Assembly (NCBI GenBank): GCA_014649555.1
Contig: BMTG01000001.1
Span: forward strand, 1,054,001-1,118,000
Source: Streptomyces globisporus
GTDB lineage: Bacteria; Actinomycetota; Actinomycetes; Streptomycetales; Streptomycetaceae
Reading direction: 5' to 3'
DNA length: 64,000 nt
Both the position numbers and the translations under genes were made by a program. This document shows, in pieces, positions 8,454-26,784 of the stretch. The notes under the pieces were generated by a model. It saw only the letters and a program-made list of their open reading frames with translations. It was not told the origin of the DNA and did not search any database. How positions within the stretch are numbered: position 1 is the stretch's first letter; every line of letters begins with the position of its first letter.

Positions 8454-10085
8454 TCAGAAAAGGCTGACGGCGGCGAAGCGCAGGACGGCCTGCGGGGCCC
8501 CGGAAAGCAGGATTCCGGCGGCGGATGTGAGGACGATCGCCGTGGTGAGCGGGGTGGGCGCGCGGAATCGGCGGGGCGGGGCGGAGGCCGGGGATCCGGT
8601 GTCCGGCCCGGCCGTTTCCGGGGCCCCGTCCGGCGCGCGGAAGAGGATCGCGGTCCACTGAAGGTAGTAGTAGAGAGCGATCACCACGTTGACGGCCATG
8701 ACGACGGCGAGCCAGCCGAGGCCCGCGTCGACCGCCGCCGAGAAGACGGTGACCTTCGCGAAGAGCCCGATGATGCCGGGCGGCAGTCCGGCCAGGCAGA
8801 GCAGGAAGAACCCGAGGGCCAGGGCGGCGAGGGGCCGGGTGGCGTACAGGCCCCGGTAGTCGGAGAGCCGGTTGCCGGGGTGCGTACGGGCGACGAGGGC
8901 GGCGACCGCGAACGCGCCCAGGTTCACCACCGCGTACATGAGGGCGTACGCCACGGTGGAGCCGATCTGTTCGTCGCTGGAGTACGCGGCGGCGGCGATC
9001 GGGACCAGGAGGTAGCCGGCCTGGGCGACGGAGGACCAGGCGAGAAGGCGGACGGCGCTGCGGGCGCGGGTGGCGTTCTGGCGGAGGGCGGCGACGTTGC
9101 CGACGGTCATGGTGAGCGCGGCCAGAACGGCGAGGGCGGGTCCCCAGACGTCCGCATAGGAGGGGAACGCGATGACGGTCACCAGAATGAGGCCCGAAAA
9201 CCCTACGGCCTTCCCCACCACGGAGAGATACGCGGCGATCGGGAGGGGCGCGCCGACGTAGGTGTCGGGGACCCAGAAGTGGAAGGGCGCGGCGGCCGTC
9301 TTGAAGGCGAAGCCGACAAGCGTCAGGGCCACCCCGGTCTTGGCGAGGGTGTCGAGGACCGGGGACACGTCGTCGAGACGGTCGGCGATCTCGGTGAGGT
9401 GCAGGGTGCCGGTGGCCGCGTAGACGAAGCTGACGCCGAGCAGCATGACGGCGGTGGCGACGACGGAGGAGAGGAAGAACTTCAGCGCGGCCTCGGAGGA
9501 GCGCCGGTCGCCGCGCTTGATGCCGACGAGGGCGAACGCGGGCAGGGAGGCGACTTCGAGGGCGACGACGAGCGTGGCGAGGTCACGGGAGGCGGGCAGC
9601 AGGGCCGCTCCCGAGGCGGAGGCCAGGAGCAGGAACCAGTACTCCCCCGCCGGCAGCTTGCGGGTGTCGTCGAGCGAGAGCAGGACGGTGAGGAACGCGC
9701 CGCCGAGGACGAGTGCCTGGATGACGACGGTGAAGTGGTCGGCGGTGTAGCTGCACGCCTGGGCGCCGGTGGTGACGCAGAAGGTGGACCGGTCACCGGA
9801 GCGCAGGGGGATCAGGAACGCCAGGGCGGCGGCGAGCGCGGTAAGGGTGGCGTACCCGAGGAGCCGTTTGCGGTGGGCGGGCAGGAACAGGTCGGCGACG
9901 AGGACGACCAGGGCGGCCAGCGCGGTGAGGGTGGGGGGCGCGATGGCGAGCCAGTCGATGGACTGGACGACGCTGGGGACGTCGGCCGCGACGAGGCTTC
10001 CGGCGGTGTCGCCCGTGCCGGGTGCCGTCGTGGCCTGGGCGTGCGCGAGGAGGCTTGTGGCGGTGGTGCTGAGGTCCGCGGTCAC
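8454..10085 (-). CDS. nuoN: Complex I membrane subunit N (second set)
   Basis: A 543-residue antiporter-like proton-translocating subunit of respiratory complex I, with about 14 membrane helices. The motif FHFWVPDTYVGAPLPIAAYLSVVGKAVG (near residue 255) is the conserved discontinuous-helix region, and lysines in the central helices match the family. GTG start at 10085 overlaps the nuoM stop (GTGA). It is the last gene of the cluster; 116 bases without a gene separate it from mscL. Length is slightly above the usual 480-500 because of a longer N-terminus and a proline-rich insert near residue 500. Lower specificity between N, M and L is resolved by gene order. Confidence 0.95.
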   Translation of the reverse strand: MTADLSTTATSLLAHAQATTAPGTGDTAGSLVAADVPSVVQSIDWLAIAPPTLTALAALVVLVADLFLPAHRKRLLGYATLTALAAALAFLIPLRSGDRSTFCVTTGAQACSYTADHFTVVIQALVLGGAFLTVLLSLDDTRKLPAGEYWFLLLASASGAALLPASRDLATLVVALEVASLPAFALVGIKRGDRRSSEAALKFFLSSVVATAVMLLGVSFVYAATGTLHLTEIADRLDDVSPVLDTLAKTGVALTLVGFAFKTAAAPFHFWVPDTYVGAPLPIAAYLSVVGKAVGFSGLILVTVIAFPSYADVWGPALAVLAALTMTVGNVAALRQNATRARSAVRLLAWSSVAQAGYLLVPIAAAAYSSDEQIGSTVAYALMYAVVNLGAFAVAALVARTHPGNRLSDYRGLYATRPLAALALGFFLLCLAGLPPGIIGLFAKVTVFSAAVDAGLGWLAVVMAVNVVIALYYYLQWTAILFRAPDGAPETAGPDTGSPASAPPRRFRAPTPLTTAIVLTSAAGILLSGAPQAVLRFAAVSLF

Positions 10086-11770
10086 GACTTGCCTCCTGCG
10101 AGAAGCTGCTGCACGGCGGGGTCGGTGAGGCCGAGGAGGACGGCGGGCCAGAGGCCGGCGACGACGGTGAGCGCGGCGAGCGGGGTCCAGGCGGCGGCTT
10201 CGTACGGGTGGATGTCGGCGAGCTGCGGGGTGGTGGCCGTACGGGGGCCGGCGCTCCCGGACGACGGGGAACCGGCGGCTCCGGACTGCGGGGAGCCGTC
10301 CGCCGTTCGAGGAGCGTGCTCGTCGGGCGACAGCCGGGAGTGGGGCGCGTGCTCGCCCATGCAGACGCGGCGGACGACGATGAGCATGTACGCGGCGGTG
10401 AGCAGGGTGCCGAACGCCCCGATGGCCATGAAGGTGCGGAACGCGGGGCGGCTGAGGCCTTCGGCCGGGCTGTACGCGCCGAACAGGGTGAGCATCTCGC
10501 CCCAGAATCCGGCGAGTCCGGGCAGGCCGAGCGAGGCGACGGCGGCGAAGGCGAGCAGCGCGCCGAGGCGGGGGGCCCGGCCGTAGAGGGCGGCTCCGGT
10601 CGCTCCGGCGAGGGTGTCGAGGTCGGCGGTGCCGTAGCGGTCCTTGATCGCGCCGACCAGGAAGAACAACAGGCCGGTGATGAGGCCGTGGGCGATGTTG
10701 GCGAAGAGCGCGCCGTTGACTCCGGTGGGGGTCATGGTGGCGATGCCGAGCAGGACGAAGCCCATGTGGCCGACGGACGAGTACGCGATGAGCCGCTTGA
10801 GGTCGCCCTTGACTCCGGTACGGGCCAGGGCCAGGCAGGCGAGGGACCCGTAGACGATGCCGACGACGGCGAACGCGGCGAGGTAGGGCGCGAAGGTGCG
10901 CATGCCGTCCGGCGCGACGGGGAGCAGGATCCGGACGAATCCGTACGTTCCCATCTTCAGCAGGACGCCCGCGAGGAGGACGGATCCGACGGTCGGGGCG
11001 GCGGTGTGGGCGTCGGGCAGCCAGGTGTGCAGGGGCCACATCGGGGTCTTCACCGCGAGCCCGAGACCGATCGCGAGTACGGCGATGACCTGCACGGATG
11101 TGGTGAGGCCGCGGCCGTTGTCAGTGGCGAGTGCCACCATGTCGAATGTGCCGCTCTTCAGCCCGATGAGGAGAAGGCCGAGCAGCATGACGACCGAGCC
11201 GAGCAGCGTGTAGAGGATGAACTTCCAGGCGGCGGACTGTCGTTGGTCGCCGCCCCAGCGATTGATGAGGAAGTACATCGGGATGAGGACCATCTCGAAG
11301 GCGAGGAAGAAGAGCAGCAGATCGAGGACGGCGAAGGTGGCGAGGGTGCCGGACTCCAGGACGAGCACGAGGGCGACGAACGCCTTCGGTGAGGGGCCCG
11401 CGGGCAGCTTGAAGTAGCTGTACAGCGCGCAGAGGAAGGTCAGCAGCGCGGTCAGGACCAGGAGGGGGAGCGAGATGCCGTCGATGCCGAGGTGGATGCG
11501 GACGTCGAGCGCCGGGATCCAGCTGATGTCGGTGGTCGCCTGCATCGTGGCGGGGTGGTCGTGGTCGAAGCCGGCGGCCAGGGCGATCGCGGCGACGAGG
11601 ACGGCGCCGGTGACGGTCACGCCGTGGCGGAGCACGGCCTGGTCGGGGTTCTTCCCCTTGAGCCCGGGCGGCGCGGGGAGCAGGGCCGCGAGGGCGCCGA
11701 GGAGCGGGGCGACGACGATGAACGCCAGAAGGAACTGCATCACGGACGGGCTGATATCGATCACGGTCAC
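10082..11770 (-). CDS. nuoM: Complex I membrane subunit M (second set)
   Basis: A 562-residue antiporter-like subunit. The key TM5 glutamate is present in FEMVLIPMYFLI (near residue 152), and the conserved [23 protein letters not shown] follows near 245. A hydrophilic insert of about 60 residues near the C-terminus (HAPHSRLSPDEHAPRTADGS...) is longer than in E. coli NuoM. It begins with GTG at 11770, overlapping the nuoL stop, and its own stop overlaps nuoN. Inner membrane, proton pumping arm. Confidence 0.96.
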   Translation of the reverse strand: MTVIDISPSVMQFLLAFIVVAPLLGALAALLPAPPGLKGKNPDQAVLRHGVTVTGAVLVAAIALAAGFDHDHPATMQATTDISWIPALDVRIHLGIDGISLPLLVLTALLTFLCALYSYFKLPAGPSPKAFVALVLVLESGTLATFAVLDLLLFFLAFEMVLIPMYFLINRWGGDQRQSAAWKFILYTLLGSVVMLLGLLLIGLKSGTFDMVALATDNGRGLTTSVQVIAVLAIGLGLAVKTPMWPLHTWLPDAHTAAPTVGSVLLAGVLLKMGTYGFVRILLPVAPDGMRTFAPYLAAFAVVGIVYGSLACLALARTGVKGDLKRLIAYSSVGHMGFVLLGIATMTPTGVNGALFANIAHGLITGLLFFLVGAIKDRYGTADLDTLAGATGAALYGRAPRLGALLAFAAVASLGLPGLAGFWGEMLTLFGAYSPAEGLSRPAFRTFMAIGAFGTLLTAAYMLIVVRRVCMGEHAPHSRLSPDEHAPRTADGSPQSGAAGSPSSGSAGPRTATTPQLADIHPYEAAAWTPLAALTVVAGLWPAVLLGLTDPAVQQLLAGGKS

Positions 11771-13767
11771 GACCCCGCGTTGACGTTGGCGAAGACGACG
11801 GCGGCGATCGCCAGGGCGAGGGACCCGGCGAGCAGGGCGCTGACGTAGGTCTGCACGTTGCCGGTCTGGGCCCGGCGGACGGCGGTGCCGAGGAGGCGGG
11901 TGACGGTGCCCGTTCCGTTGACGTAGGTGTCCACGACCTCGCGGTCCAGGAAGCGGACGAGGCGGGCGGCTGCCCGGACGGGCCGGACGAACAGCGCCGT
12001 GTACAGGGCGTCGAGGTGGAACCCGGTGACCGCGTGGCGGTGCAGCGGGCCCAGGAGGAGCCTGCCGGGGTCGGCCGGGTCGGAGGCGTCCGCGATGGTG
12101 CCGTAGGCGGCGGTGTGGGACGTCATGGCCTCGGCTTCGACGAGAGCGGGTTCGGCGCCCGGGTGGGCGGCCACGGCTCCGATGGGGGTGCGGGCGGCGA
12201 GGGCGGTGGTGTGCCGCCAGGCTCCGAAGGTGACGAGGCCGCCGACGAGCGTGACGCCGGTGGCGAGGACGGCGGTGGTGAGGGACGGCGTGAGGGCGTG
12301 CCCGTCGAACCAGTCGCCGAGCAGGCCGGCGGTGAGGCCGAAGCCGATGGTGGGGACGGCCAGGATCCACAGGACGGAGGTCATGGCGAGAGGCTGCTTG
12401 CCGTGGTCGGGGACTTCGGCCCCGCGGCCGCGGAAGGCGAGGAGCCAGAGGCGTACGGCGTAGGAGGCGGTCAGGACGGCGGCGAGGAGCCCGGCGACCA
12501 GGATCGTCCAGCCTGCGGCGGCCGGGGCGACGGTCCGGTCCCCCAGCGCGGTGTGCTCGGCGGCGACGAGGACGGCTTCCTTGGAGAAGAAGCCGGCGAA
12601 CGGCGGGATGGCGGCCAGCGCGAGGAGCGCGACGGTCATCGTCCAGTAGGCGTCCGGGATCCGGCGTGCGAGGCCGCTCATCCGGGACATGGCGGCGAGC
12701 GAGTTGGTGCCCGCGGCGTGGATGACGACGCCCGCGGCCAGGAAGAGGACGGCTTTGAACGCACCGTGCGAGATCAGGTGGAAGACGGCCGCGCCCCGGT
12801 CGCCGACGGCGAGGGCGCCCGACATGTAGCCGAGCTGACCGATCGTCGAGTAGGCGAGGACGCGTTTGATGTCGTCCTGGGCGAGGGCGGCGAGCCCGGA
12901 CCCGATCATCGTGACGGCGGCCATCACGGCGAGGACGACGAGCGCCGCGCCGGAGGCCGCGAAGACGGGCAGCAGGCGGGCCACGAAGTAGATACCGGCG
13001 GCGACCATCGTCGCGGCGTGGATGAGCGCGGAGACGGGGGTGGGGCCGGCCATGGCGTCGGGCAGCCAGGTGTGCAGGGGGAACTGCGCCGACTTGCCCG
13101 CGACGCCCGCGAGGAGCAGCAGGGCGATGAGCGTGGGGTGCTCAAGACCGCCGTTGGCGACGGCGGCGAGGATCTTGGTGATCCGGAAACTACCGGTGTC
13201 GGCGGCGAGCGCGAACAGGCCGATCAGGAAGGGGACATCGCCGAGCTTGGTGACCAGGAAGGCTTTGAGGGAGGCGGCCCGGGCCTCGGGCGTCTCCCAG
13301 TAGTGGCCGACGAGGAAGTACGAGCAGATGCCCATGATCTCCCAGCCGACCAGGAGCACCATCAGGTCGCCGGAGTAGACGACCAGGAGCATCGCGGAGG
13401 TGAAGAGGGAGACGAGGGCCGCGTAGGAGGGATAGCGGGGGTCGTCGCGGAGGTAGGCCGTGGAGTAGAGCTGGACGCAGGTGGCGACGACGGTGACGAG
13501 GACGGCCACCAGCACGGCGAAGCCGTCGAGGTGCAGCGCCAGGTCGATCGGGACCGAGCCGGTGGGCGTCAGCTGGGTTGCGGCGTCGATCGCCCGGCCG
13601 CCGCCCTGACGGACGGCGACCAGCCCGGCGAGCACAGCCGCGGTGAGGGTCGGGAGGATCGCCAGCGGGCGGACGAAGCCGGGGGCGGTGCGGCCGACGG
13701 CGAGCCCGGCGAGGGCGCCGAGGAACGGGAGGAGGGGGACGAGGGCGGCGAGGGTCGTGGTGGTCAC
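11767..13767 (-). CDS. nuoL: Complex I membrane subunit L (second set)
   Basis: A 666-residue distal antiporter-like subunit with the long lateral helix expected at the C-terminus. [30 protein letters not shown] (near 230-260) and the TM5 glutamate in [18 protein letters not shown] are diagnostic. It starts with GTG at 13767 in a GTGA overlap with nuoK. A soluble insert near 530-570 ([18 protein letters not shown]...) lies before the last membrane segments. It works with NuoM, NuoN and NuoK in proton translocation. Confidence 0.96.
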
Positions 13768-14195
13768 GTGGTGGCCCCTGCCTTCTTGGTCTTTCCTGTT
13801 TTCCCGTCTGCCCGGTCGGGGGCCGTCTCGGCGCCGTCGGTTTCCGCGCCGTCGGCCTCTGCGGTGTCGGGGAGCGTTTCCGCCTCGTCCGTCTCGGCGG
13901 TGTCGCGGAGCCGGTCGATGTCGGAGGTGCCCCGGTTGCGGTAGACGGCCAGGACGATCGCGAGGCCGATGCCGATCTCGGCGGCGGCGATGGCGATGGT
14001 GAAGAGCGTGAGGGCCTGGCCGGAGTGGAGGGTGTCGCGGAGCCAGACGTCGAAGGCGACGAGGTTGAGGTTGACGGCGTTGAGCATCAGCTCGACGGAC
14101 ATCAGGACGAGGATCGCGTTGCGGCGGGCGAGGACGCCGTAGAGGCCGACGCAGAAAAGGAGGGCCGCAAGAACGGCGGGATAGGCGAGGTGCAT
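13764..14195 (-). CDS. nuoK: Complex I membrane subunit K (second set), extended C-terminus
   Basis: A 143-residue three-helix membrane subunit. The two proton-path glutamates are present: [13 protein letters not shown] (Glu36-type) and [11 protein letters not shown] (Glu72-type). The canonical protein ends near residue 100; here an additional 40-residue acidic tail rich in Glu/Asp/Thr/Ala ([19 protein letters not shown]...) follows, ending in a short basic patch (KTGKTKKAG). The ATG overlaps the nuoJ stop as TGATG; its stop overlaps nuoL as GTGA. Confidence 0.95.
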
Positions 14196-14845
14196 CAGCG
14201 CTGCTCCTCCTTGCCGGGTGTGCCGATCGGGCCGGGCCGGCCCGTGGGGCCCGTGCTCTTGCCCTTGCCCGTGCTCGTGTCCGTGTTGCGTTTGCGGGAC
14301 AGGACGATCGCGCCGACGAGAGCGGCGAGGAGGAGGACGGAGAGCGCCTCGAAGGGCAGGACCCAGTTCCGGAAGAGGAAGGCTCCGGTGACGGCGGTGG
14401 AGCCCTGAGCCGGCCCGTCGAGGTCGATCCAGGTCGTACGGAAGGCGTCCACGACGACCCAGACGAGCGCGGCGGCAGAGGCGAGGGCCACGCCGAGGGC
14501 CACCCACCGGTTGCCCGAGTCGGCGTCCGGGGAGCGGCCGATGGGGGCCCGGGTGAGCATCAGACCGAAGAGGAGGAGGACGACGATGGAACCGACGTAG
14601 ATCAGTACCTGGACCCAGGCGATGAACTCCGCGGTGAGCAGAAGGTACTCGACGGCCAGACCGCCGAGCGCGACGACGAGCCAGAGCGCGGCGTGCACCA
14701 GTTGCCTGGTGGTGACGGTGATGACGGCGGCGCCGAGGGTGGCAAGGCCGACGAGGAGGAACGCGATCTCGACGCCTGACGGGGAGAGGAAGCCGGGGTG
14801 GTCGCCTGTGGCGGAGGCGAGCAGAGGGGGTGCGGTGTGCAGCAT
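14195..14845 (-). CDS. nuoJ: Complex I membrane subunit J (second set)
   Basis: A 216-residue subunit with five membrane helices. The conserved [26 protein letters not shown] (near 65-90) contains the flexible TM3 region. The start is either ATG 14845 (TGATG with the nuoI stop) or GTG 14848 (GTGA); I chose the ATG, and GGGAGGG lies 8-12 bases upstream of both. The C-terminal 40 residues are Gly/Pro/Thr/Lys-rich and cytosolic. Coupled at both ends to nuoI and nuoK. Confidence 0.93.
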
Positions 14846-15435
14846 CACGAGGTCCCTCCCTTCTCGTCCCGCTGTTGCCGGGGCTCTTGCTCCTCCTGCT
14901 GTTCCTGTGCGCGTTGGGCGGCGAGCTTGTCCGCGGCCTTGCGGGCGGCGGCGATCTCCTTCGGCTCCTCGGCGCCGGGGTCGAGGGCTGGCGGCTCCGG
15001 CACGGTCCACATCCACTCACGGAGCTTGTCCCGCTCGTGGGTGAGTTCGTGGATGTCCGTCTCCGCGTACTCGAACTCGGGTGACCAGAACAGTGCGTCG
15101 AAGGGGCAGACCTCGATGCAGATACCGCAGTACATGCAGAGGGAGAAGTCGATGGCGAAGCGGTCGAGGACGTTCCGGCTGCGCTCACGGCCGCCGGGGG
15201 CGGCGGGTGGCGACGTCTCCTTGTGGGAGTCGATGTAGATGCACCAGTCGGGGCACTCACGGGCGCAGAGCATGCAGACCGTGCAGTTCTCCTCGAACAG
15301 TCCGATGACGCCCCGGGAGCGAGGTGGGAGTTCGGGCTGGGTGTCCGGGTACTGCGCGGTGACGGTCTTCTTCGTCATCGTGCGCAGGGTGACGGCAAGA
15401 CCTTTGGCCAGGCCGGATCCGGGGATCGGGGGCAT
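14845..15435 (-). CDS. nuoI: Complex I iron-sulfur subunit I (second set)
   Basis: A 196-residue protein with two 4Fe-4S ferredoxin motifs. The first, [15 protein letters not shown], supplies Cys51/54/57/61. The second, [11 protein letters not shown], supplies Cys100/103/106/110, each followed by the usual Pro. These hold clusters N6a and N6b, which pass electrons to N2 in NuoB. The last 60 residues are a charged Glu/Gln/Arg/Lys helix-rich tail not present in E. coli. Start ATG 15435 overlaps the nuoH stop (TGATG). In a complex without NuoEFG this would be the likely entry point for electrons from a ferredoxin-like donor (inference). Confidence 0.96.
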
Positions 15436-16403
15436 CAGTTGATCGCCACCTTCACGATGCCGGTGAGCGCGATCTGCGCGAGGGCGAGCGGGACGAGGGT
15501 GGTCCAGGCGAGCTTCTGCAACTGGTCCTCACGCAGGCGCGGGTAGCTGACGCGGAGCCAGATGACGACGAACGCGAGGAGCGCGGTCTTGAGGAGGGTC
15601 CAGAGCCAGCCGAGTCCGTCGGCGCCGAAGGGGCCGTGCCAGCCGCCGAGGAAGAGGACGGTGGTCAGGGCGCACAGGATGACGATGCCCGCGTACTCCG
15701 CGAGGAGGAACAGGGCGAAGCGCAGCCCGGTGTACTCGGTGTACGCGCCGAAGATGATCTCGGAGTCGGCCACCGGCATGTCGAACGGCGGTCGCTGGAG
15801 TTCGGCGAGACCGGCCACGAAGAAGACCAGGGCGCCGACGATCTGCCAGGGCAGCCACCACCACGCGAACGCGTCGAGGATGCCGGTGAGCGAGACCGTA
15901 CCGGCCGCCATGGCCACGGAGGCGGCGGCCAGGAGCATCGGCAGCTCGTAGGAGAGGAGTTGCGCGGCGGTACGGAGGCCGCCGAGCAGGGAGAACTTGT
16001 TGGCGGACGCCCAGCCCGCCATGAGCGAGCCGAGGACGCCGATGCCCATGACGGCGAGCACGAAGAAGATGCCCGCATCGACGACCTGGCCGACCGCGCC
16101 GTCGCCGGGACCGAGGGGGATGACGGCGAGGACGAGCAGGTACGGGAGGAGGGCGACGGCAGGGGCGAGCTGGAAGACGCGGCGGTCGGCGGCGGCCGGG
16201 ACCACGTCCTCCTTCTGCGCGAACTTCACGCCGTCCGCGACGAGCTGGGCCCAGCCGTGGAAGCCGCCTGCGTACATGGGGCCCAGGCGGCCTTGCATGT
16301 GCGCCATGACCTTGTGTTCCGTCTGGCCGACGAGGAGGGGGGCGACCAGGAACACGACGAAGACGATGGCCAGACGGAGGGCGACGTCGAGAACGTCGTT
16401 CAC
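15435..16403 (-). CDS. nuoH: Complex I membrane subunit H (second set)
   Basis: A 322-residue subunit with eight membrane helices forming the quinone chamber and E-channel. Conserved loops are intact: [16 protein letters not shown] near residue 27, [19 protein letters not shown] near 199, and [20 protein letters not shown] near 217. GTG at 16403 overlaps the nuoC stop. All residues I associate with quinone-site architecture in NuoH appear to be kept, although nuoD, which completes that site, is absent from this cluster. Confidence 0.96.
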
Positions 16404-18166
16404 TCGGGATCGCCTCCGGCGGGGTGGTCTGGAGCGGGGCTGTCTGGGGTGGGGGGGTGCTTGTCGGGGGTGGGCTTGTCGCTGGGGTCCGGGGTGTCGC
16501 TCGGGTCCGAGGCTCCGCCCGGTTCCGGGGTGTCGCTGGGGTCCGGGATGCCGTTCGGTTCCGGGGTGCCGTCCGGGTCCGGGGCGCCGTTCGGTTCCGG
16601 GGTGTCGCTGGGGTCCGGGATGCCGTTCGGTTCCGGGGTGCCGTCCGGGTCCGGGGCGCCGTTCGGGTCCGGGGTGTCGCTGGGCGTGGGTGTGGGGCCG
16701 CTGCGCGGGGCTTCTCCCCTACCCGCCCCTTCCCGGGCCGGGGGCTCCGCCCCCGTGCCCCCGCTCCTCAAGCGCCGGAGGGGCTGGGAAGGCGCGTCCG
16801 GAGACTCGCCCTCAGGGCCCTCCGGTTCGTCGAAGGCCGGCTGCGCGTCGTGCCACGGGGCGTCCGTGCTGCGCACCCGGGGCGGACTCGACGGCGGGCC
16901 CTCGGGCTTGTCCGACGCCGAACGCTGACTGGCCGAGCCACCGGACGCGGAACGGGAACGGCGTGGGCCGGCCGTCGGCGGCGCGGGCGACTCGCCCGCC
17001 TCGGGACGCCGGCTCGCCGAGCCGTCCGAAGCCGACCGGGAACGGCGGGCGGGCCGGGCAGGCGTGGCCTCCGGCTCGTCCGGCTCCGGGCGTTGGCTCG
17101 CCGAACCCTCCGACGCCGACCGGGAACGTCGTGCCGATGCGGGTGGGTTCTCTGCGGGAGTGTCGGCGGGCGTCTGCTGGCTCGCCGAACCCTCCGACGC
17201 CGACCGGGACCGGCGCGGGCGGGTCGCCGCAGGCGTCTCGGGTGCGGGAGCAGTCTCCGGTGCCGCTGCGGCCTCCCGTGTCGCGGGGGCGGCAGCCTGC
17301 TCACCGGCCGTCGTGGGAGCCTCCGGGGCAGCCGCGCCGGTCACCTCGGGCGCCTGCGTGCCCGACGTCCCAGGGGCAGCCGTGCCGGGTGTCGTGACGG
17401 CCTCCGGGCCAGGCGGCGTGGTGGCCTCCGGGGCGGGTGTCGTGGCGCGTTGTGCCGCCGAGCCCTCGCCCGCCGTGCGGGTGCGGCGTGGCGGACGGTC
17501 CGCCACGGGGCGGGCGGCCCGGGTCGGGCGGGCGGCGGCCGGGGGGAGTTGGCCCTTCAGGGGGCCCCATTCGTTCGGGTCGGGGACCCCGGGCGGGAGC
17601 ATCGCGCGTCGCTTGGGCCCGGTGTGGCCCTCCGCCGGCTCCCCCGGCTCCTTCGCCCCGGGCCAGGCCTTGGCGACACGCGCGGCCAGGACGAAGTCCT
17701 TGCGCAGCGGATGGCCTTCGAAGCCTTCCGGCAGGAGGAGCGGTACGAGATGGGGGTGGCCGTCGAACGCGACGCCGAACATCTCGTGCGTCTCGCGCTC
17801 GTGCCAGGCCGCGCCCGCGTACACGTCGATGGCGCTGGGCAGCACCGCCGCGTCGTGCGGCACGGTGGTGCGGACCAACAGCCGCCGCACCCTTCCCGTG
17901 CCGAGGGCCGCGACATGGGCACAGACGCGGAAGCCGACGCCCGGTTCGTCCACGGCGCTGAGCCAGTCGAAGTAGGTGCACCCGAGTTCGTCGCGGGCGG
18001 TCCGCAGCGCGGTGAGCCAGTCGGCGGCGGGGACGTCGACGGTGAGCAGGTCGTACGCCGACTCCGCCGTGGCTCCGTCGCCGAACACGTCGGTGACCGC
18101 GTCCGGCAGCCGGTCGTAGGCCCCGGCCCCGGCAGCGGACTCAGCCTGCTGGTCGCGACCGCTCAT
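16400..18166 (-). CDS. nuoC: NuoC-domain subunit with giant repetitive disordered tail
   Basis: 588 residues, of which only about 1-200 form the 30-kDa NuoC domain. The signature [17 protein letters not shown]...GHPLRKDF lies at 122-158. The remaining 380 residues are low-complexity: four near-identical RRSRSAS(E/D/G)GSAS units plus a variant [13 protein letters not shown], long Pro/Ala/Thr/Glu tracts, then a 24-residue acidic Pro/Asp/Gly repeat ([16 protein letters not shown] type) present twice in full. Nothing in the tail resembles NuoD. ATG 18166 overlaps the nuoB stop (ATGA). The tail could be a disordered linker, a protein-protein or RNA-binding RS-like region, or selectively neutral; its function is unknown. 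Confidence 0.92.
16531..16674. repeat. 72-bp tandem duplication inside the nuoC tail
   Basis: Two 72-base copies (16531-16602 and 16603-16674), differing by essentially one base, encode a 24-residue Pro/Asp/Gly/Glu unit. A third copy starts at 16675 and diverges after about ten bases. The unit is itself built of 18-base GTCCGGG/GTTCGGT sub-repeats. It lies in frame, so copy number can change without disrupting translation. Confidence 0.93.
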
Positions 18167-18855
18167 CGCAGCCCCTCCTCGTCCGGTTCCGAAGCTGCTG
18201 GCGGGGCCGCTGCCGGAGCCGCTGCCGGCTGGGTGACGAGGCCGCTGCGCAGAGCCTCGGTCGACGGGCCGCCGCCCGTGCCCACGGAGGCGTACCGCTC
18301 GGCGAGGGATTCGCGCGCGATCTTCTCCTGGAGCTTGAGGATGCCCTGGAGCAGCGCCTCGGGCCTGGGCGGGCAGCCGGGTACGTACACATCGACGGGG
18401 ATGATCTGGTCGACGCCCTTGGTCACGGAGTACGAGTCCCAGTAGGGGCCGCCGCAGTTGGAGCAGGCGCCGAAGGAGATGACGTACTTCGGTTCCGGCA
18501 TCTGCTCGTACAGCCGCTTCACGGCCGGGGCCATCTTGTCCGTCACCGTGCCGGACACGATCATGAGGTCGGCCTGACGGGGGCCGGGGGCGAACGGGAT
18601 CACGCCGAGCCGGATGAAGTCGTGGCGGGCCATCGACGCGGCGATGAACTCGATGGCGCAGCAGGCGAGTCCGAAGTTGAAGACCCAGAGGCTGTAGCGG
18701 CGGCCCCAGTTGAGGACGACCTTCATCGGCTCCGGTGCGAGCCGGGAGAGCACGCCGAGGCGCTTGGGCTCGGGAAGGAGGACCGGGTCGGCGGGGGCTG
18801 GGGGCGGGGACGCGGGCTGCTGCGACGCGGAGTTCGGCCGGCTCGTCAGGCCCAT
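18163..18855 (-). CDS. nuoB: Complex I iron-sulfur subunit B (second set)
   Basis: A 230-residue protein holding the terminal cluster N2. All four ligands are present: the tandem Cys65-Cys66 (GLACCAIEF), Cys131 (GACSNCGG) and Cys161 (VPGCPPRP). The core spans 30-185. The N-terminal 30 residues are Pro/Ser-rich, and an Ala/Pro-rich tail of about 40 follows. The ATG lies within the 3' end of nuoA (10-base overlap) and the stop overlaps nuoC. In complete complexes NuoB packs against NuoD to form the quinone site; here the partner must come from elsewhere or be missing. Confidence 0.96.
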
Positions 18856-19307
18856 GCGAGGACGCCCTTCTTCCATGCGTAGAGCAGTCCCACGGCCAGG
18901 AAGCCGAGGAAGATGAACATTTCGACCAGGGTCGTCGCGCCGTATCCAGGCGCCGCGAACACCGTGGCCCAGGGGAACAGGAAGATGGAGTCGACCGCGA
19001 AGATCACGTACAGGAACGCGTAGACGTAGTACCGCACCTGGGTGTGCGCCCAGCCCTCGCCGACCGGGTCGACGCCGCATTCATAGGTGAGCAGCTTCTC
19101 CGGGGTGGGCACGATGGGGCGCAGCAGTCGCCCGGCTCCGAAAGCGACGGCGACGAACAGGACGCCGACCAGGGCGAGCAGGCCGATGACCGAATAGCTC
19201 TGGAAGTACTCTGAGGCGAGTGCGGTGGCTCCGTCCGCCGGAACACCGGACACCCCGGTCATGCCCGCCGCGTCCGCCAAGCCGGTCACGTCCGTAACGT
19301 CGGCCAC
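18846..19307 (-). CDS. nuoA: Complex I membrane subunit A (second set)
   Basis: A 153-residue subunit with three membrane helices. [36 protein letters not shown] is the strongly conserved loop and TM2, including the Cys of the loop and the membrane carboxylates. The N-terminus is uncertain: GTG 19307 has GAGGGGCG upstream, while an in-frame ATG at 19262 would give a more usual length of 138. I list the longer form. First gene of the ten-gene cluster; a candidate promoter lies about 80 bases upstream. Confidence 0.93.
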
Positions 19308-19411: not shown

Positions 19412-19505
19412 GCAGCCGCGTCGGACATCAGGTGGGGTTATCCCTACTTCACCCCCACCCACGAGCCCCATGGTGCGCGCGGGTGCGGCCCGGCAGGCTG
19501 GGGGT

Positions 19506-20696
19506 ATGACCATGAGCCCCTCCCTGCCGGCCCCCGACCGGCTGCCGCCCGCCCGCTTCGCCCTCGACCGGTGGACCTGGCGGGAGATCGCTTATCTGCT
19601 CGCCAATCTGCCGGTGGCCGTCGTCGGGTTCGTCTACACGGTTGTGGTGATCAGCGTGGGCGCCGGACTGTCCGTCACCGTGATCGGTCTGCCGCTGCTG
19701 GTCGGCGGGCTCCAGGGTGCCCGGCTGCTGGGCGGGCTGGAGCGGCGGCGGGCGCGGTGGATGCTCGGTGTGCGGGTGGACGAGCCGAGTCCGCTGGGGC
19801 GCGGCCACCGGGATGAGGGGTTCTTCGTCCGGCTGTGGGCGGGGCTGAAGGACCCGGTGGGCTGGCGGGCGTTGTTGTACGGGTTCATCCGACTGCCGTG
19901 GGGGGTGCTGACGTTCGCGGTGACACTGGTGAGTCTGTTCGTCCTGTGGCCGGTGCTGCCGTTCATCGCGCGGGGGCTGACGACGGTGGACCGGGCGTTG
20001 GTGCGCGGGCTGCTGTCTCCGTCGGACGAGTTGGAGCGGCGCATCGCCGAGCTGGAGTCGGACCGGGGCGTGGTCGTGGACACGGCCGCCGCCGACCTCC
20101 GCCGGATCGAGCGCGACCTGCACGACGGCGCCCAGGCCCGCCTGGTCGCCCTCGCCATGGGGCTCGGCCTGGCGAAGGAGAAGCTCACCGACGACCCCGA
20201 GGCCGCCGCCCGCATGGTCGACGAGGCCCACGGCGAGATCAAGGTGGCCCTGCAGGAGCTGCGCGACCTGGCACGCGGCATCCACCCCGCCGTCCTCACC
20301 GACCGGGGCCTGGACGCCGCACTCTCCGCCATCGCCTCCCGCTGCACGGTCCCGGTCAAGGTGTCGGTGGGGCTTCGGGGGCGTCCGGCCGAGGCGATCG
20401 AGGGGATCGCGTATTTCACCGTCTCGGAGCTCCTTCAGAACATCAGCAAGCACAGCGGTGCGCGGTCGGCCTCGGTCGACGTGTGGCGTTCGGGGGGCCG
20501 GCTGCTGCTCCAGGTCACGGACGACGGCGGGGGCGGGGCCCGGCTGGACGGCGGCTCGGGGCTGGCGGGGCTCGCCGAGCGGCTCGACGCGGTCGACGGG
20601 GTGTTCGTCGTGGACTCGCCGGAGGGCGGGCCGACGACCGTCACCGCCGAGCTGCCCTGGCGCGACCGGACCGTTGCGGCCGCACGCCCGGCATGA
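19506..20696 (+). CDS. NarL-type sensor histidine kinase with integral membrane sensor domain (1)
   Basis: A 396-residue membrane kinase. Residues 1-170 are the 'putative sensor' membrane domain with two hydrophobic hairpins (about 30-75 and 120-160). The HisKA_3 dimerisation helix has RIERDLHDGAQARL with phospho-acceptor His206, and the HATPase domain has the N-box ELLQNISKHSG and G-box DDGGGG...GLAGLAERL. ATG 19506 lies seven bases after CAGGCT, suggesting a leaderless mRNA. It is closely paralogous to the next kinase: about 100 residues around the His are almost identical. Likely feeds the LuxR-type regulator at 22785. Confidence 0.93.
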   Translation: MTMSPSLPAPDRLPPARFALDRWTWREIAYLLANLPVAVVGFVYTVVVISVGAGLSVTVIGLPLLVGGLQGARLLGGLERRRARWMLGVRVDEPSPLGRGHRDEGFFVRLWAGLKDPVGWRALLYGFIRLPWGVLTFAVTLVSLFVLWPVLPFIARGLTTVDRALVRGLLSPSDELERRIAELESDRGVVVDTAAADLRRIERDLHDGAQARLVALAMGLGLAKEKLTDDPEAAARMVDEAHGEIKVALQELRDLARGIHPAVLTDRGLDAALSAIASRCTVPVKVSVGLRGRPAEAIEGIAYFTVSELLQNISKHSGARSASVDVWRSGGRLLLQVTDDGGGGARLDGGSGLAGLAERLDAVDGVFVVDSPEGGPTTVTAELPWRDRTVAAARPA

Positions 20697-20958: not shown

Positions 20959-22320
20959 ATGGCCACGGCATACGGACCGGACACGCGGGACCGGGAGCAC
21001 GAGGGTTCCGCCCCCGGCTTCGGGGTGAAGACCCGGACGAGGCAATTCCTCCCGGCGCCGCTGCGTGCGCCGCTGGAGGCCCGTGCCTGGCGCGAGCTCC
21101 TCTACGCGCTGCTGAGCTTCCCGCTCAGCACGGTGATGTTCGTCTTCGCGGTCACCATGACGTCGTTGAGCGCGGGTCTGATGGTCACCTTCATCGGGAT
21201 ACCGGTCCTCGCCGTCGGCCTCGCCGTGTGCCGGGGCTTCGGGACGCTGGAGCGGCACCGGGCGCGGGCGCTGCTGCGGGTGGAGGTGGCGGATCCGGAG
21301 CGGGTGCGCGGGAAGACCGGCGGCCCGATGTCCTGGATGGGCGCCGTCCTCAAGAGCGGGGCGTCCTGGCGGCACCTGCTGTACACGCTGCTGCACTTCC
21401 CGTGGGCCGTATTCACGTTCGTCGTCGCGATCACGTTCTGGACGTACGGTCTGATGGCGCTGACGTACCCGCTGTGGTTCTGGCTCTTCCCGATGTTCGC
21501 CGGGCAGGACGGCATCCAGGTGTACGGGGACCGCACCCACGAGGAGTATCTGAACTCGCCCCTGGAGCTGGCGGTGACCGGGGCGGTGGGCCTGGTGCTG
21601 GTGGTGGCGGCGCCCTGGGTGGTGCGGGGTCTGCTGACGGTGGACCGGCTGATGGTCACCGGTCTGCTGGGGCCGTCCCGGCTGGCCAGCCGGGTCTCCG
21701 AGCTGGAGTCGGACCGGGGCGTGGTCGTGGACACCGCCGCCGCCGACCTCCGCCGGATCGAGCGCGACCTGCACGACGGCGCCCAGGCCCGCCTGGTCGC
21801 CCTCGCGATGGATCTGGGCCTGGCGAAGGAGAAGCTGACCGACGACCCCGAGGCCGCGGCCCGCATGGTCGACGAGGCTCACGGCGAGGTGAAGGTCGCT
21901 CTGCAGGAGCTGCGCGACCTGGCCCGCGGCATCCACCCCGCCGTCCTCACCGACCGGGGCCTGGACGCCGCACTGTCCGCAATAGCCTCCCGCTGCACCG
22001 TGCCCGTGACCGTCGAGGTGGACCTGGACTCGCGTCCGGCGCAGGCGATCGAGGGGATCGCGTATTTCACCGTCTCGGAGCTGCTCCAGAACATCAGCAA
22101 GCACGCCCGTGCGACCCGGGCCACGGTCGATGTGTGGCGGGCGGGCGACCGGCTGATGCTCCAGGTCACGGACAACGGCCAGGGTGGGGCGTCGTCGGCC
22201 TCGGGCGGCGGCCTGGCCGGACTGGCGGAGCGGCTGGACGCCGTGGACGGGATCCTGGTGGTCGACTCCCCGGCCGGCGGCCCGACGACGGTCACAGCCG
22301 AACTGCCCTGGCGCGGCTGA
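20959..22320 (+). CDS. NarL-type sensor histidine kinase with integral membrane sensor domain (2)
   Basis: A 453-residue paralogue of the preceding kinase. The longer membrane sensor region (about 45-95 and 135-230, four to six hydrophobic segments) contains an extra 45-residue loop, QDGIQVYGDRTHEEYLNSP. The DHp helix has RIERDLHDGAQARL with His272, and the ATPase domain ends in ADNGQGG-type G-box and GLAGLAERLDAVDG. The catalytic core is nearly identical to kinase 1, while the sensor halves differ, so the two proteins may sense different cues, or heterodimerise, and act on the same regulator. ATG chosen at the conserved length; GGGACTC lies just upstream. Confidence 0.93.
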   Translation: MATAYGPDTRDREHEGSAPGFGVKTRTRQFLPAPLRAPLEARAWRELLYALLSFPLSTVMFVFAVTMTSLSAGLMVTFIGIPVLAVGLAVCRGFGTLERHRARALLRVEVADPERVRGKTGGPMSWMGAVLKSGASWRHLLYTLLHFPWAVFTFVVAITFWTYGLMALTYPLWFWLFPMFAGQDGIQVYGDRTHEEYLNSPLELAVTGAVGLVLVVAAPWVVRGLLTVDRLMVTGLLGPSRLASRVSELESDRGVVVDTAAADLRRIERDLHDGAQARLVALAMDLGLAKEKLTDDPEAAARMVDEAHGEVKVALQELRDLARGIHPAVLTDRGLDAALSAIASRCTVPVTVEVDLDSRPAQAIEGIAYFTVSELLQNISKHARATRATVDVWRAGDRLMLQVTDNGQGGASSASGGGLAGLAERLDAVDGILVVDSPAGGPTTVTAELPWRG

Positions 22321-22370: not shown

Positions 22371-22525
22371 TCGCCCTGGCAGGCCGGGGTGCCCCAGCGG
22401 GAGCCGCCCTGCCCCGGCTGCCCCGGATGAACCGAGCGGGCGGGCACGCCCCGGACAGACCCGTCGCCCTGGCAGGCCGGGGTGCCCCGGCGGAGCCGCC
22501 CTGGCGCGGCTGCCCCGAACGAACC
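22371..22525. repeat. Imperfect 93-bp direct duplication in a 464-base gene-free stretch
   Basis: The segment 22371-22433 recurs at 22464-22525 (offset 93): the first 25 bases are identical and the rest differ at a few positions, both ending GATGAACC/AACGAACC. It is followed by a pyrimidine-rich tract (22555-22640) with a repeated GGGGC(A/G)GGCCCCCTCTCCC unit. The stretch 22321-22784 holds no convincing gene; it contains these repeats and the promoter of the response regulator gene. Confidence 0.8.
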
Positions 22526-22784
22526 TCGCCCTCCCCCGTTCCTTGCCGGGGCAGGCCCCCTCTCCCTACCGGGGCGGGCCCCCTCTCCCGCCGCTCCCCT
22601 GCCCTCCCTCTCCCCTCCCCTTGCCTCTCCCTCACCGGTCCGCGTGGGTTATCCACAGGTCCCCCATCCGAGTCCGGGTCCTGGGATGCTGGGACGGTCG
22701 GGGCGCGGCGCGCGGTGGGTCGGGCGTGGGGCGTGCGAGGTCGCGGGGAACGCGGCATATTCGAAAAGTGGGGGACTCGCAGTC

Positions 22785-23465
22785 GTGGAGAACGTGGAGA
22801 ACAGGGTGCGCGTGGTCATCGCCGAGGATTCGGTCCTGCTCCGGGAGGGGCTCACCCGGCTGCTCACCGATCTCGGGCACGACGTGGTCGCGGGGGTCGG
22901 GGACGCGGAGGCGCTGCTCAAGACCGTGGCGGAGCTCGACGCCGAGCAGGCGCTTCCCGATGTGGTGGTCGCCGACGTGCGGATGCCGCCGACGCACACG
23001 GACGAGGGAGTGCGCGCGGCGGTGCGGCTGCGGAAGGACTACCCGGGCATCGGGGTGCTGGTCCTCTCCCAGTACGTGGAGGAGCAGTACGCCACCGAGC
23101 TGCTGGCGGGCAGCAGCCGCGGGGTGGGGTATCTGCTGAAGGACCGGGTGGCCGAGGTCCGCGAGTTCGTGGACGCGGTCGTCCGGGTGGCGCAGGGCGG
23201 GACGGCTCTGGACCCGGAAGTGGTGGCGCAGCTGCTGGGCCGCAGCCGCAAGCAGGACGTGCTGGCCGGGCTGACGCCGCGCGAGCGGGAGGTCCTCGGT
23301 CTGATGGCCGAGGGCCGGACGAACTCCGCCATCGCCCGCCAGCTCGTGGTGAGCGACGGGGCGGTCGAGAAGCACGTCAGCAACATCTTCCTGAAGCTGG
23401 GGCTCTCCCCCAGCGACGGCGACCACCGGCGCGTCCTCGCCGTGCTGACCTACCTGAATTCTTAG
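22785..23465 (+). CDS. LuxR/NarL-family response regulator
   Basis: A 226-residue regulator. The receiver domain has the acidic pocket AED (residues 14-15), phospho-acceptor Asp64 (VVVADVRMPP) and the conserved Lys in YLLKDRV. The C-terminal helix-turn-helix is LTPREREVLGLMAEGRTNSAIARQLVVSDGAVEKHVSNIF. Start GTG 22785 follows a GGGGG about 11 bases upstream; a second in-frame GTG at 22794 is possible. Context makes it the partner of the two upstream kinases. An LSPSDGDHRRVLAVLTYL C-terminus is typical of this subclass. Target genes are unknown; nuo and korAB flank it. Confidence 0.92.
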   Translation: MENVENRVRVVIAEDSVLLREGLTRLLTDLGHDVVAGVGDAEALLKTVAELDAEQALPDVVVADVRMPPTHTDEGVRAAVRLRKDYPGIGVLVLSQYVEEQYATELLAGSSRGVGYLLKDRVAEVREFVDAVVRVAQGGTALDPEVVAQLLGRSRKQDVLAGLTPREREVLGLMAEGRTNSAIARQLVVSDGAVEKHVSNIFLKLGLSPSDGDHRRVLAVLTYLNS

Positions 23466-23484: not shown

Positions 23485-23753
23485 ATATCGAGCACTTGAG
23501 AAGCACTCAAAGGCGCCCCGAGAGGGGACGGAGAAGGTGAGGGATCTAGGGCCAAAGGCCCAGGGGCAGCGCATCTCCATCCCACGATCGGGGGTCGGCA
23601 TAACGTGACAGTCCTTACTAAAAGGGTGTCTCAAAACAGCGTCCACCATATGATCGGTCCCTGGAGGGCAACCTACGCAGACGTAGGGTGGCCTCCGGGA
23701 TCCGCCGGCCGCCGGACGGTTCCGAACCGCCGCCCCAAGGGAGGTCCAGTTCA

Positions 23754-25710
23754 GTGACGAGCCAGGTCAGTAGCGCGGCAGAGAAGGCCGATGAGGCCAA
23801 CGACGCCGTCCTCGGGGGCCAGCGAGCCCCCCTGTCAGGTACGACGGGAACCACGGGCGGCGACGGGAAGGAAGTCCGCCGCCTGGACCGGGTGATCATC
23901 CGCTTCGCGGGCGACTCGGGTGACGGTATGCAGCTCACGGGTGACCGGTTCACCTCAGAGACCGCTTCCTTCGGCAACGATCTCTCCACCCTGCCGAACT
24001 TCCCGGCGGAGATCCGCGCCCCCGCAGGCACGCTGCCGGGGGTCTCTTCCTTTCAGCTCCACTTTGCCGATCATGACATTCTGACCCCGGGCGACGCCCC
24101 CAACGTCCTGGTCGCGATGAATCCCGCCGCGTTGAAGGCGAACATCGACGACGTACCGCGCGGCGCGGAAATCATTGTGAACACCGACGAGTTCACGAAG
24201 CGGCCGATGGCGAAGGTGGGCTATGCGACCAGCCCGCTGGAGGACGGTTCGCTGGAGGCCTACAACGTCCACCCGGTGCCGCTGACGACGCTGACGCTGG
24301 AGGCGCTGAAGGAGTTCGGGCTCCCCCGCAAGGAGGCCGAGCGGTCCAAGAACATGTTCGCGCTCGGACTGCTGTCGTGGATGTACCACCGGCCGACCGA
24401 GGGGACGGAGGCGTTCCTGCGGACCAAATTCGCGAAGAAACCGGAGATCGCCGAGGCGAATGTGGCGGCCTTCCGGGCCGGGTGGAATTTCGGCGAGACG
24501 ACCGAGGACTTCGCGGTCTCCTACGAGGTCGCCCCGGCGTCACAGGCCTTCCCCACCGGCACCTACCGCAACATCTCGGGGAACCTCGCCCTGTCCTACG
24601 GCCTGATCGCCGCAGGGCAGCTGGCGGACCTGCCGCTCTACCTGGGCTCGTATCCGATCACCCCGGCCTCGGACATCCTGCACGAGCTGTCCCGGCACAA
24701 GAATTTCGGTGTGCGGACCTTCCAGGCCGAGGACGAGATCGCCGGAATCGGGGCGGCGCTGGGAGCCGCGTTCGGCGGGGCGCTGGGTGTGACCACGACA
24801 TCGGGCCCCGGTGTGGCGCTGAAGTCGGAGACGATCGGGCTCGCGGTCTCCCTGGAGCTCCCGCTGCTGATCATCGACATCCAGCGCGGCGGTCCGTCGA
24901 CCGGGCTGCCGACCAAGACCGAGCAGGCCGACCTGCTCCAGGCGATGTACGGCAGGAACGGTGAGGCCCCGGTTCCGATCGTGGCCCCGCAGACCCCGGC
25001 GGACTGCTTCGACGCCGCGATCGACGCGGCCCGGATCGCCCTGACGTACCGGACGCCGGTCTTCCTGCTCTCCGACGGTTATCTGGCCAACGGCTCCGAG
25101 CCCTGGCGCATCCCGGAGACGGATTCGCTGCCCGACCTCAAGACGCCGTTCGCCACCGGGCCGAACCACGCCCTGGCCGACGGCACCGAAGTCTTCTGGC
25201 CCTACAAGCGCGACCCGCAGACCCTGGCCCGCCCCTGGGCGGTCCCCGGGACGGCCGGCCTGGAGCACCGCATCGGCGGGATCGAGAAGCAGGACGGCAC
25301 CGGCAACATCTCCTACGACCCGGCCAACCACGACTTCATGGTCCGCACGCGCCAGGCCAAGGTGGACGGCATCGAGGTTCCCGACCTGGAGGTCGACGAC
25401 CCGGCCGGGGCGGCGACGCTGGTGCTCGGCTGGGGATCGACGTACGGGCCGATCACCGCCGCCGTTCGCCGTCTGCGCGCCGCGGGGGCGCCCATCGCCC
25501 AGGCCCACCTGCGCCATCTCAACCCCTTCCCGAAGAATCTCGGCGAGGTACTGAAGCGCTACGACAAAGTCGTCGTGCCGGAGATGAACCTCGGCCAGCT
25601 CGCGATGCTGCTGCGGGCGAAGTATCTGGTGGACGCCCACAGCTACAACCAGGTCAACGGAATGCCGTTCAAGGCCGAGCAGCTCGCCACGGCTCTCAAG
25701 GAGGCCATCG

Positions 25711-25718
<8 letters not shown>
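23754..25718 (+). CDS. korA: 2-oxoacid:ferredoxin oxidoreductase, alpha subunit (gamma-alpha fusion)
   Basis: A 654-residue subunit that with KorB oxidatively decarboxylates 2-oxoglutarate (or a related 2-oxoacid) to the CoA ester while reducing ferredoxin. The N-terminal gamma domain (about 45-230) begins RVIIRFAGDSGDGMQLTGDRF. The alpha domain (about 265-500) has LYLGSYPITPASDILHEL and TTTSGPGVALKSETIGLA, and a C-terminal transketolase-like domain follows. Start GTG 23754 has AGGGAGG nine bases upstream; the longer ATG start lacks one. The first 40 residues are a non-conserved Ser/Gly-rich leader. It overlaps korB by eight bases. Typical of aerobic actinobacteria using a KorAB-type variant TCA step. 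Confidence 0.95.

Positions 25719-26784
<1,066 letters not shown>

Follow-up and report, generated by a model that had tools for sequence, protein, structure and literature searches.

The stretch of the Streptomyces globisporus genome analysed here (64,000 nucleotides, hereafter the window; G000:C1:1054001-1118000) carries at 8454-19307 the nuo2 cluster, a set of ten genes for subunits of complex I. Complex I also exists in 11-subunit forms without NuoE, NuoF and NuoG, such as Fpo, the NDH-1 type and ferredoxin-dependent bacterial forms. We consider it probable, at roughly 85 %, that nuo2 encodes a second, smaller complex I of this kind, i.e. an 11-subunit enzyme without the NADH (reduced nicotinamide adenine dinucleotide) module, for which the cluster provides ten subunits and a relocated nuoD2 gene the eleventh. 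This reading rests on four observations: a separate nuoD2 gene is present in the genome, relatives of this gene are located inside 11-gene operons, the gene itself is conserved, and NuoB2 and NuoD2 carry a complementary residue pair around the iron-sulfur cluster N2.

All genes of the nuo2 cluster lie on the minus strand and were assigned by Pfam and NCBIfam profile matches. From left to right they are nuoN2, which encodes an antiporter-like subunit (8454-9980; TIGR01770, E 1.4e-92, and PF00361), nuoM2 (10082-11728; TIGR01972, E 1.1e-165), nuoL2 (11767-13767; TIGR01974, E 1.8e-137, with PF00361 and PF00662), nuoK2, the start of which is uncertain (13764-14210; PF00420, E 1.7e-29), nuoJ2 (14195-14845; PF00499, E 3.8e-35), nuoI2, with two [4Fe-4S] motifs (14845-15435; NCBIfam NuoI models), nuoH2 (15435-16403; PF00146, E 6.7e-101), nuoC2 (16400-18166; PF00329, E 1.1e-32), nuoB2 (18163-18855; TIGR01957, E 7.4e-66), and nuoA2 (18846-19307; PF00507, E 1.1e-31). 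Neighbouring genes mostly overlap by 1-4 bp; gaps of 38 bp and of 101 bp, the largest, separate nuoL2 from nuoM2 and nuoM2 from nuoN2. The same scan detected no nuoD, nuoE, nuoF, or nuoG within the cluster, which agrees with an initial annotation of this DNA that had described ten tightly coupled genes for A, B, C, and H to N and had likened the missing NADH module (E, F, G) to that of 11-subunit enzymes. A NuoD fused into NuoC2 is ruled out, as this 588-residue protein comprises only a NuoC domain (residues ~43-163) and a 418-residue tail recognized by its Pro/Ala-rich composition. The tail (window 16400-17660) contains near-repeats, in nine further Streptomyces loci the whole NuoC2 protein is 429-680 aa long, and long NuoC frames also occur in some 11-gene operons from other classes.

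A search of the whole genome with the PF00346 profile revealed two NuoD genes, one within a complete nuoA-N operon and one standing alone, so that both objects of the search proposed in the initial annotation were found. The main operon, with 14 genes, was located by E. coli NuoA-N queries, all of which matched one stretch of contig C1 (~1123.9-1140.0 kb), about 50 kb past the right-hand end of nuo2. The lone gene, nuoD2 (380 aa; G000:C13:46172-47311, frame start L008:8173), begins 38 bp past a gene for a methyltransferase of the MidA/NDUFAF7 type (PF02636). The statement that nuoD is missing thus holds for the cluster and not for the genome, and the split-off gene that had been envisaged nearby exists, but far away on another contig. 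Subunits A, B, C, D, H, I, J, K, L, M, and N are all encoded, ten of them in the window and NuoD2 on C13. The main NuoD and NuoB proteins are 38 % and 42 % identical to their nuo2 counterparts. NuoE (PF01257) is a single-copy protein of the main operon, and NuoF (PF01512) is represented by the main-operon copy and by a NuoF-like/ferredoxin fusion on C10; no dedicated NuoE, NuoF, or NuoG was found for nuo2 (genome-wide for NuoE and NuoF, within the cluster for NuoG), which accordingly lacks the subunits of its own that would identify a 14-subunit NADH:quinone oxidoreductase. In the fusion protein (L009:7580-9142; G000:C10, ~162.6-164.1 kb) a NuoF-like part with flavin mononucleotide, SLBB, and 4Fe-4S domains is joined to a C-terminal ferredoxin domain; no other nuo gene was noted alongside, and the protein is a possible link between NADH and ferredoxin. 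A third, distant NuoH-like gene (G000:C3:321931-322746, E 6.8e-48) perhaps belongs to a hydrogenase-type complex. Large subunits of group 4 membrane-bound [NiFe] hydrogenases contain CxxC pairs as nickel ligands. A check of the NuoD2 sequence revealed no CxxC pair, and the best PDB matches of NuoD2 are 49-kDa subunits of complex I; judged by these ligands, NuoD2 would not belong to group 4.

The nuo2 genes are widely conserved in the genus. NuoH2, whose nearest relatives are proteins of Streptomyces species with 97-99 % identity, is present in 146 of 150 sampled congeners, and NuoD2 in 147 (146 full-length proteins and one fragment). The genomes without nuoD2 (G028, G112, G119) and those without NuoH2 (G001, G008, G046, G139) are all drafts of at least 250 contigs, and none of the 150 lacks both. 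Each of the 53 named Streptomyces loci that span 20.5 kb or more (80 fetched) contains all ten genes. Among 197 sampled genomes of the class, 53 have NuoH2, and NuoD2 is present in 51 of these, the two misses being 72 % and 80 % complete. From other classes of the same phylum, we compared 20 loci around NuoB2-like genes. In 17 of them a nuoD2 gene (46-58 % identical) is located between nuoC2 and nuoH2; eleven genes in the order A-B-C-D-H-I-J-K-L-M-N are visible in 11 of these loci, five end in nuoM2, and one contig (L277) ends in nuoH2. One of the remaining loci (L281) is a nuo2 cluster without nuoD, and two (L292, L293) are other nuo operons and no relatives of nuo2. In several loci of these classes the nuo2 cluster follows the nuoN gene of the main operon. 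Given the position of nuoD2 in 17 of 20 loci, the most economical history starts from an 11-gene operon, which nuoD2 left in the Streptomyces line. The initial annotation had also considered a different membrane machine, an idea that is contradicted by relatives in which the same genes, nuoD2 among them, form an 11-gene nuo operon. Paired distances of NuoB2 and NuoD2 are correlated (r 0.59, 0 of 2000 permutations, 33 pairs) in a test that cannot tell co-evolution apart from common descent. The residue comparisons included 18 NuoI rows for the 11-gene group; the one from L277, where the contig ends, is the main NuoI.

The surroundings of cluster N2 bear on the proposal, also made in the initial annotation, that the cluster borrows NuoD from the main complex I. 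The papers cited here and below are cited after excerpts of their text. In mammals, Pichia, and Paracoccus the arginine of the HRGxE motif of NDUFS2/NuoD (bovine Arg85) carries a symmetric dimethylation, which is introduced by NDUFAF7 in human; its E. coli equivalent is unmodified (PMC3829151, PMC3750175). The residue at this place is 3.7 Å from N2, the Yarrowia variants R121M/K show neither quinone reduction nor an N2 signal, and in Thermus, which has a threonine at the NuoD site, arginine R83 of the NuoB homologue occupies the same space (PMC8042128). All 65 NuoD2-type rows (64 distinct) carry an arginine at the bovine-85 position; they comprise 17 rows from 11-gene operons, 26 from genomes with a membrane arm (the gene of the window being included twice), 12 from membrane-less genomes, and 10 further ones. 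The main NuoD proteins carry a threonine there (22 of 22). At the opposite position, NuoB2 has a threonine (46 of 46 rows), which is part of an SGT motif in the protein of the window, and the main NuoB has an arginine (13 of 13 rows from 12 genomes). In an alignment with PDB sequences the arginine of the main NuoB falls exactly on Thermus Arg83, and plant NDUFS7 has a threonine. According to these alignments, one of the two subunits NuoB and NuoD supplies the arginine in each enzyme, but it is a different subunit in each. As NuoB2 and the main NuoD (NuoD1) both carry threonine, a NuoB2/NuoD1 hybrid would have no arginine at N2, which is a direct argument against a borrowed NuoD.

The same residues bear on the idea that the Nuo2 proteins are alternative parts of the main complex I, in which NuoL2, NuoM2, and others would swap into a hybrid with NuoD1 and NuoEFG, with the antisense RNA at nuoL2/nuoM2 setting the mix. 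A swap has been proposed in print for NuoL2 and NuoM2 (PMC8388888, PMC3765725) and a hybrid machine in PMC9239103, and most proton-path residues are conserved in the membrane subunits of either set. We nevertheless consider this idea improbable, since the Thr/Thr pair of NuoB2 and NuoD1 would leave N2 without the arginine whose exchange in Yarrowia costs quinone reduction and the N2 signal (PMC8042128), and since B, C, D, and I of its own are inherited together with the rest of nuo2; this argument leaves a swapping of membrane subunits alone untouched.

The four N2 ligands of NuoB2 (cysteines 65, 66, 131, and 161 if translation starts at 18855; a start at 18840 gives 60, 61, 126, 129, and 156) and the eight cysteines of NuoI2, arranged in two CxxCxxCxxxC sets, are kept as initially described. 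Among the positions of NuoK, NuoL, NuoM, and NuoN that we take to function in the proton path (here and below in E. coli numbering), E36 and E72 of NuoK2, E144, K229, and K399 of NuoL2, E144, K234, K265, and E407 of NuoM2, and E133, K217, K247, and K395 of NuoN2 are conserved, including the NuoK and NuoM glutamates singled out before. The proton-path residues are for the most part intact in H, K, L, M, and N; departures in the window include NuoH E216 to V, NuoA D79 to A and E81 to D, NuoN H305 to Q, NuoL D400 to E, and NuoJ E80 to D. The Ala/Asp pair of NuoA2 in place of Asp79/Glu81 recurs in 12 of 12 other class-level clusters and in 0 of 18 loci from other classes. The quinone-site histidine of NuoD is present in 63 of the 65 NuoD2-type rows, that of the window included. 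That nuo2 is a silent or decaying duplicate is extremely improbable: although its function was called unclear in PMC9239103, the frames are open, the cysteines and most proton-path residues are kept, 146 of 150 congeners conserve it, and it is transcribed and altered in a regulator mutant (PMC3765725, PMC9239103). The initial judgement that the genes are not decaying is thus borne out.

The product of the midA gene upstream of nuoD2 matches PF02636 with an E value of 3.6e-15 (56.5 bits against a cut-off of 23.3). In the class sample this family occurs in 79 of 197 genomes, namely in 69 of the 74 with NuoD2 and in 10 of the 123 without it (Fisher p ~1e-35, uncorrected for descent). NuoD2 was scored as present at an identity of at least 50 %; a draft with a 167-residue nuoD2 fragment (G241) is excluded from the 74, and its inclusion gives 69 of 75. 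Three of the five NuoD2 genomes scored as midA-less show a MidA match 2-5 kb from nuoD2 in tblastn (L196, L203, L205). Ten midA genomes do not belong to the 74. Five of them encode a more distant NuoD2-like protein (G194, G211, G308, G327, G335), two are incomplete genomes with NuoH2 (G163, G251), two more are 73-80 % complete (G171, G221), and G215 is a true exception with midA and without NuoD2. In 14 control genomes PF02636 matches were obtained for three (Caulobacter, Synechococcus, and Haloferax) and none for E. coli, with its unmodified arginine, and Thermus. Of 44 short Streptomyces nuoD2 loci (L095-L138), 40 have midA beside nuoD2, 28 in the same direction and 12 convergently; two others end at a contig edge (L107, L118), and in L134 and L138 midA is ~5 and ~7 kb away. 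The convergent pairs and the two distant ones exclude a fixed midA-nuoD2 operon. NuoD2 carries the methylatable HRG arginine, and the main NuoD of these actinomycetes lacks an arginine at the site, so that NuoD2 is likely the substrate of MidA.

Not all relatives possess a membrane arm. A NuoH2 match is missing in 23 of the 74 NuoD2 genomes, some of which are drafts, one (G216) being probably a broken assembly. In 14 fetched loci (L251, L253-L256, L258-L265, L270), nuoB2, nuoC2, and nuoI2 are present without nuoH2 between nuoC2 and nuoI2 and without nuoJ to nuoN, which were looked for at the fetched loci only, and nuoD2 is located elsewhere in the genome. More than 3 kb past nuoI2 are visible in ten of these loci, and the contig ends 0.9-2.3 kb past it in L258, L263, L264, and L270; L252, which ends after nuoC2, was not counted as membrane-less. 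A single-contig genome (L253) has retained a nuoA2 match and a 123-residue nuoH2 remnant, which indicates that the membrane arm was lost there. Thirteen of 17 NuoD2 genomes without NuoH2 contain a single NuoH (PF00146), the other four (G160, G168, G178, G184) having additional weak or partial matches. The membrane-less NuoB proteins keep the four cysteines in 15 of 15 rows, Asp77 in 5 and Arg80 in 6, whereas the other nuo2 rows have both Asp77 and Arg80 in 31 of 31; all eight NuoI cysteines are present in 14 of 14 rows. korAB genes (see below) are found in the stretch of 10 of the 15 loci that include L252. Some clusters are split, by ~4.9 kb between nuoB2 and nuoC2 (L268), 4.2 kb between nuoC2 and nuoI2 (L251), and 3.8 kb between nuoI2 and nuoH2 (L269).

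The quinone-facing loop of the membrane-less NuoB thus appears often decayed, with the iron-sulfur ligands, the presumed target arginine of MidA, and a tryptophan of NuoD2 (see below) remaining. It is conceivable, at somewhat less than even odds, that in several actinomycete lineages the enzyme has been stripped to NuoB2, NuoC2, NuoD2, and NuoI2, a soluble Q-module acting as an electron relay, possibly for a 2-oxoacid:ferredoxin oxidoreductase. If so, these relatives would reverse the step by which complex I arose from soluble and membrane modules and would bear on its evolutionary assembly. The 14 loci, the retention of nuoD2 in those genomes, and the single NuoH in 13 of 17 could even suggest that only the B2-C2-D2-I2 module matters, as a soluble or peripheral relay to which a membrane arm is an optional attachment. 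For Streptomyces this is very unlikely, as 146 of 150 congeners have retained NuoH2 and the proton-path residues of the window are largely intact; the membrane arm is therefore probably used there.

On the plus strand, divergently from nuoA2, the window contains genes for two sensor kinases (19470-20696, 20959-22320) and a LuxR-type response regulator (22482-23465), identified by domain matches, which by position are the counterparts of SCO4596-4598, published neighbours of nuo2 (PMC9239103). They are followed on the same strand by korA and korB for a 2-oxoacid:ferredoxin oxidoreductase (23688-26784; TIGR03710, E 4.7e-198; TIGR02177, E 1.4e-72). In the full Streptomyces nuo2 loci, KorA adjoins in 53 of 53 and KorB in 52 of 53. 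By analogy with other enzymes without NuoE, NuoF, and NuoG, reduced ferredoxin is the likely donor of Nuo2, and KorAB is a plausible, not proven, supplier. In the mechanism that we propose, MidA would dimethylate the NuoD2 arginine at the place of bovine Arg85 and thereby let N2 be built; reduced ferredoxin, perhaps charged by KorAB, would dock at NuoI2, from whose clusters electrons would reach N2, located between NuoB2 and NuoD2, and finally menaquinone or a different acceptor, and protons would be pumped by NuoH2 together with NuoJ2 to NuoN2.

Several points weigh against this reading of nuo2 as a complete 11-subunit complex I. Assembly, donor, acceptor, and methylation are inferred from sequence. 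NuoD2 is not tied everywhere to an 11-subunit membrane enzyme, as is evident from the class genomes without NuoH2, several of which no longer possess a membrane arm. Quinone coupling of the ordinary kind is not certain: NuoH E216 is replaced by V or I throughout nuo2, and the position of the quinone-site tyrosine (E. coli NuoD Y273 in the 596-residue numbering) is occupied by tryptophan in 65 of 65 NuoD2-type rows, compared with tyrosine in 22 of 22 main NuoD proteins. This tyrosine matters for quinone reduction, so that Nuo2 may hand electrons to its acceptor in another way than the main enzyme does; from this comparison of NuoD2-type with main NuoD proteins, the tryptophan is provisionally treated as a variant trait. 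midA and nuoD2 belong to an old common gene neighbourhood, according to our reading of the flanking open reading frames, and may have been lost jointly as a block; furthermore, no midA was found in the fetched stretches of the 11-gene loci. Finally, KorA is encoded in 157 of 197 class genomes whether nuo2 is present or not, and lies 12-16 kb from the main nuoH in six compared genomes without nuoD2 (G186, G205, G244, G254, G265, G273). KorAB was therefore rejected as specific proof of the donor, for which it is weak evidence.

The gene names of nuo2 and the separate position of nuoD2 were known before. Streptomyces nuoA2, B2, D2, and H2-N2 were described with nuoD2 apart, with data suggesting one operon and with antisense RNA at nuoL2/nuoM2 (Moody et al. 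2013, PMC3765725), and much the same account was given for S. ambofaciens (PMC8388888). A further report counts C, D, E, F, G, and L as missing from nuo2 (PMC9239103), whereas C2 and L2 are clearly present in the cluster studied here. The excerpts of these three papers are silent on why nuoD2 is apart, on MidA, on the Arg/Thr swap, and on the change from Tyr to Trp, and the main text of a 2025 survey of complex I variants, as excerpted, leaves Streptomyces unmentioned (PMC12361115). A literature search that mostly did not extend to subscription journals yielded no link between MidA and nuoD2; the excerpted nuoD2 papers PMC8388888 and PMC3765725 mention neither MidA nor NDUFAF7. Four elements are new within the literature searched: the exchange of Arg and Thr between the two subunits, the link to MidA, the replacement of Tyr by Trp, and the forms that lack a membrane arm. 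The results as a whole give a conserved Streptomyces cluster its most likely identity and make a borrowed NuoD unnecessary. They also offer a natural two-state comparison of N2 in one cell, with the arginine on NuoB in the main enzyme and on NuoD in nuo2, where a neighbouring methyltransferase may act on it, and the purpose of NDUFAF7 methylation can be put to the test in a bacterium that is amenable to genetics and has two complexes I.

Compared with known systems, the cluster is the same as nuo2 of S. coelicolor (SCO4599-4608 and a separate nuoD2), with the same flanking two-component genes. With the mitochondrial and Paracoccus complexes I, whose NDUFS2/Nqo4 arginine is dimethylated, it shares the HRG arginine of NuoD2, an adjoining PF02636 gene, and the threonine found opposite in mitochondrial NuoB homologues; those enzymes oxidise NADH with a full core, unlike Nuo2, and the methylation of NuoD2 is a prediction. 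The main 14-subunit complex I has homologous membrane-arm and Q-module subunits and differs by NuoE, NuoF, and NuoG, by the tyrosine in NuoD, and by the Thermus arrangement of threonine in NuoD and arginine in NuoB. The 11-subunit complexes I have the same set A-D and H-N once nuoD2 is counted, and nuo2 is set apart from them by one relocated gene, by tryptophan in place of the quinone-site tyrosine, and by an NDUFAF7-type arginine beside N2.

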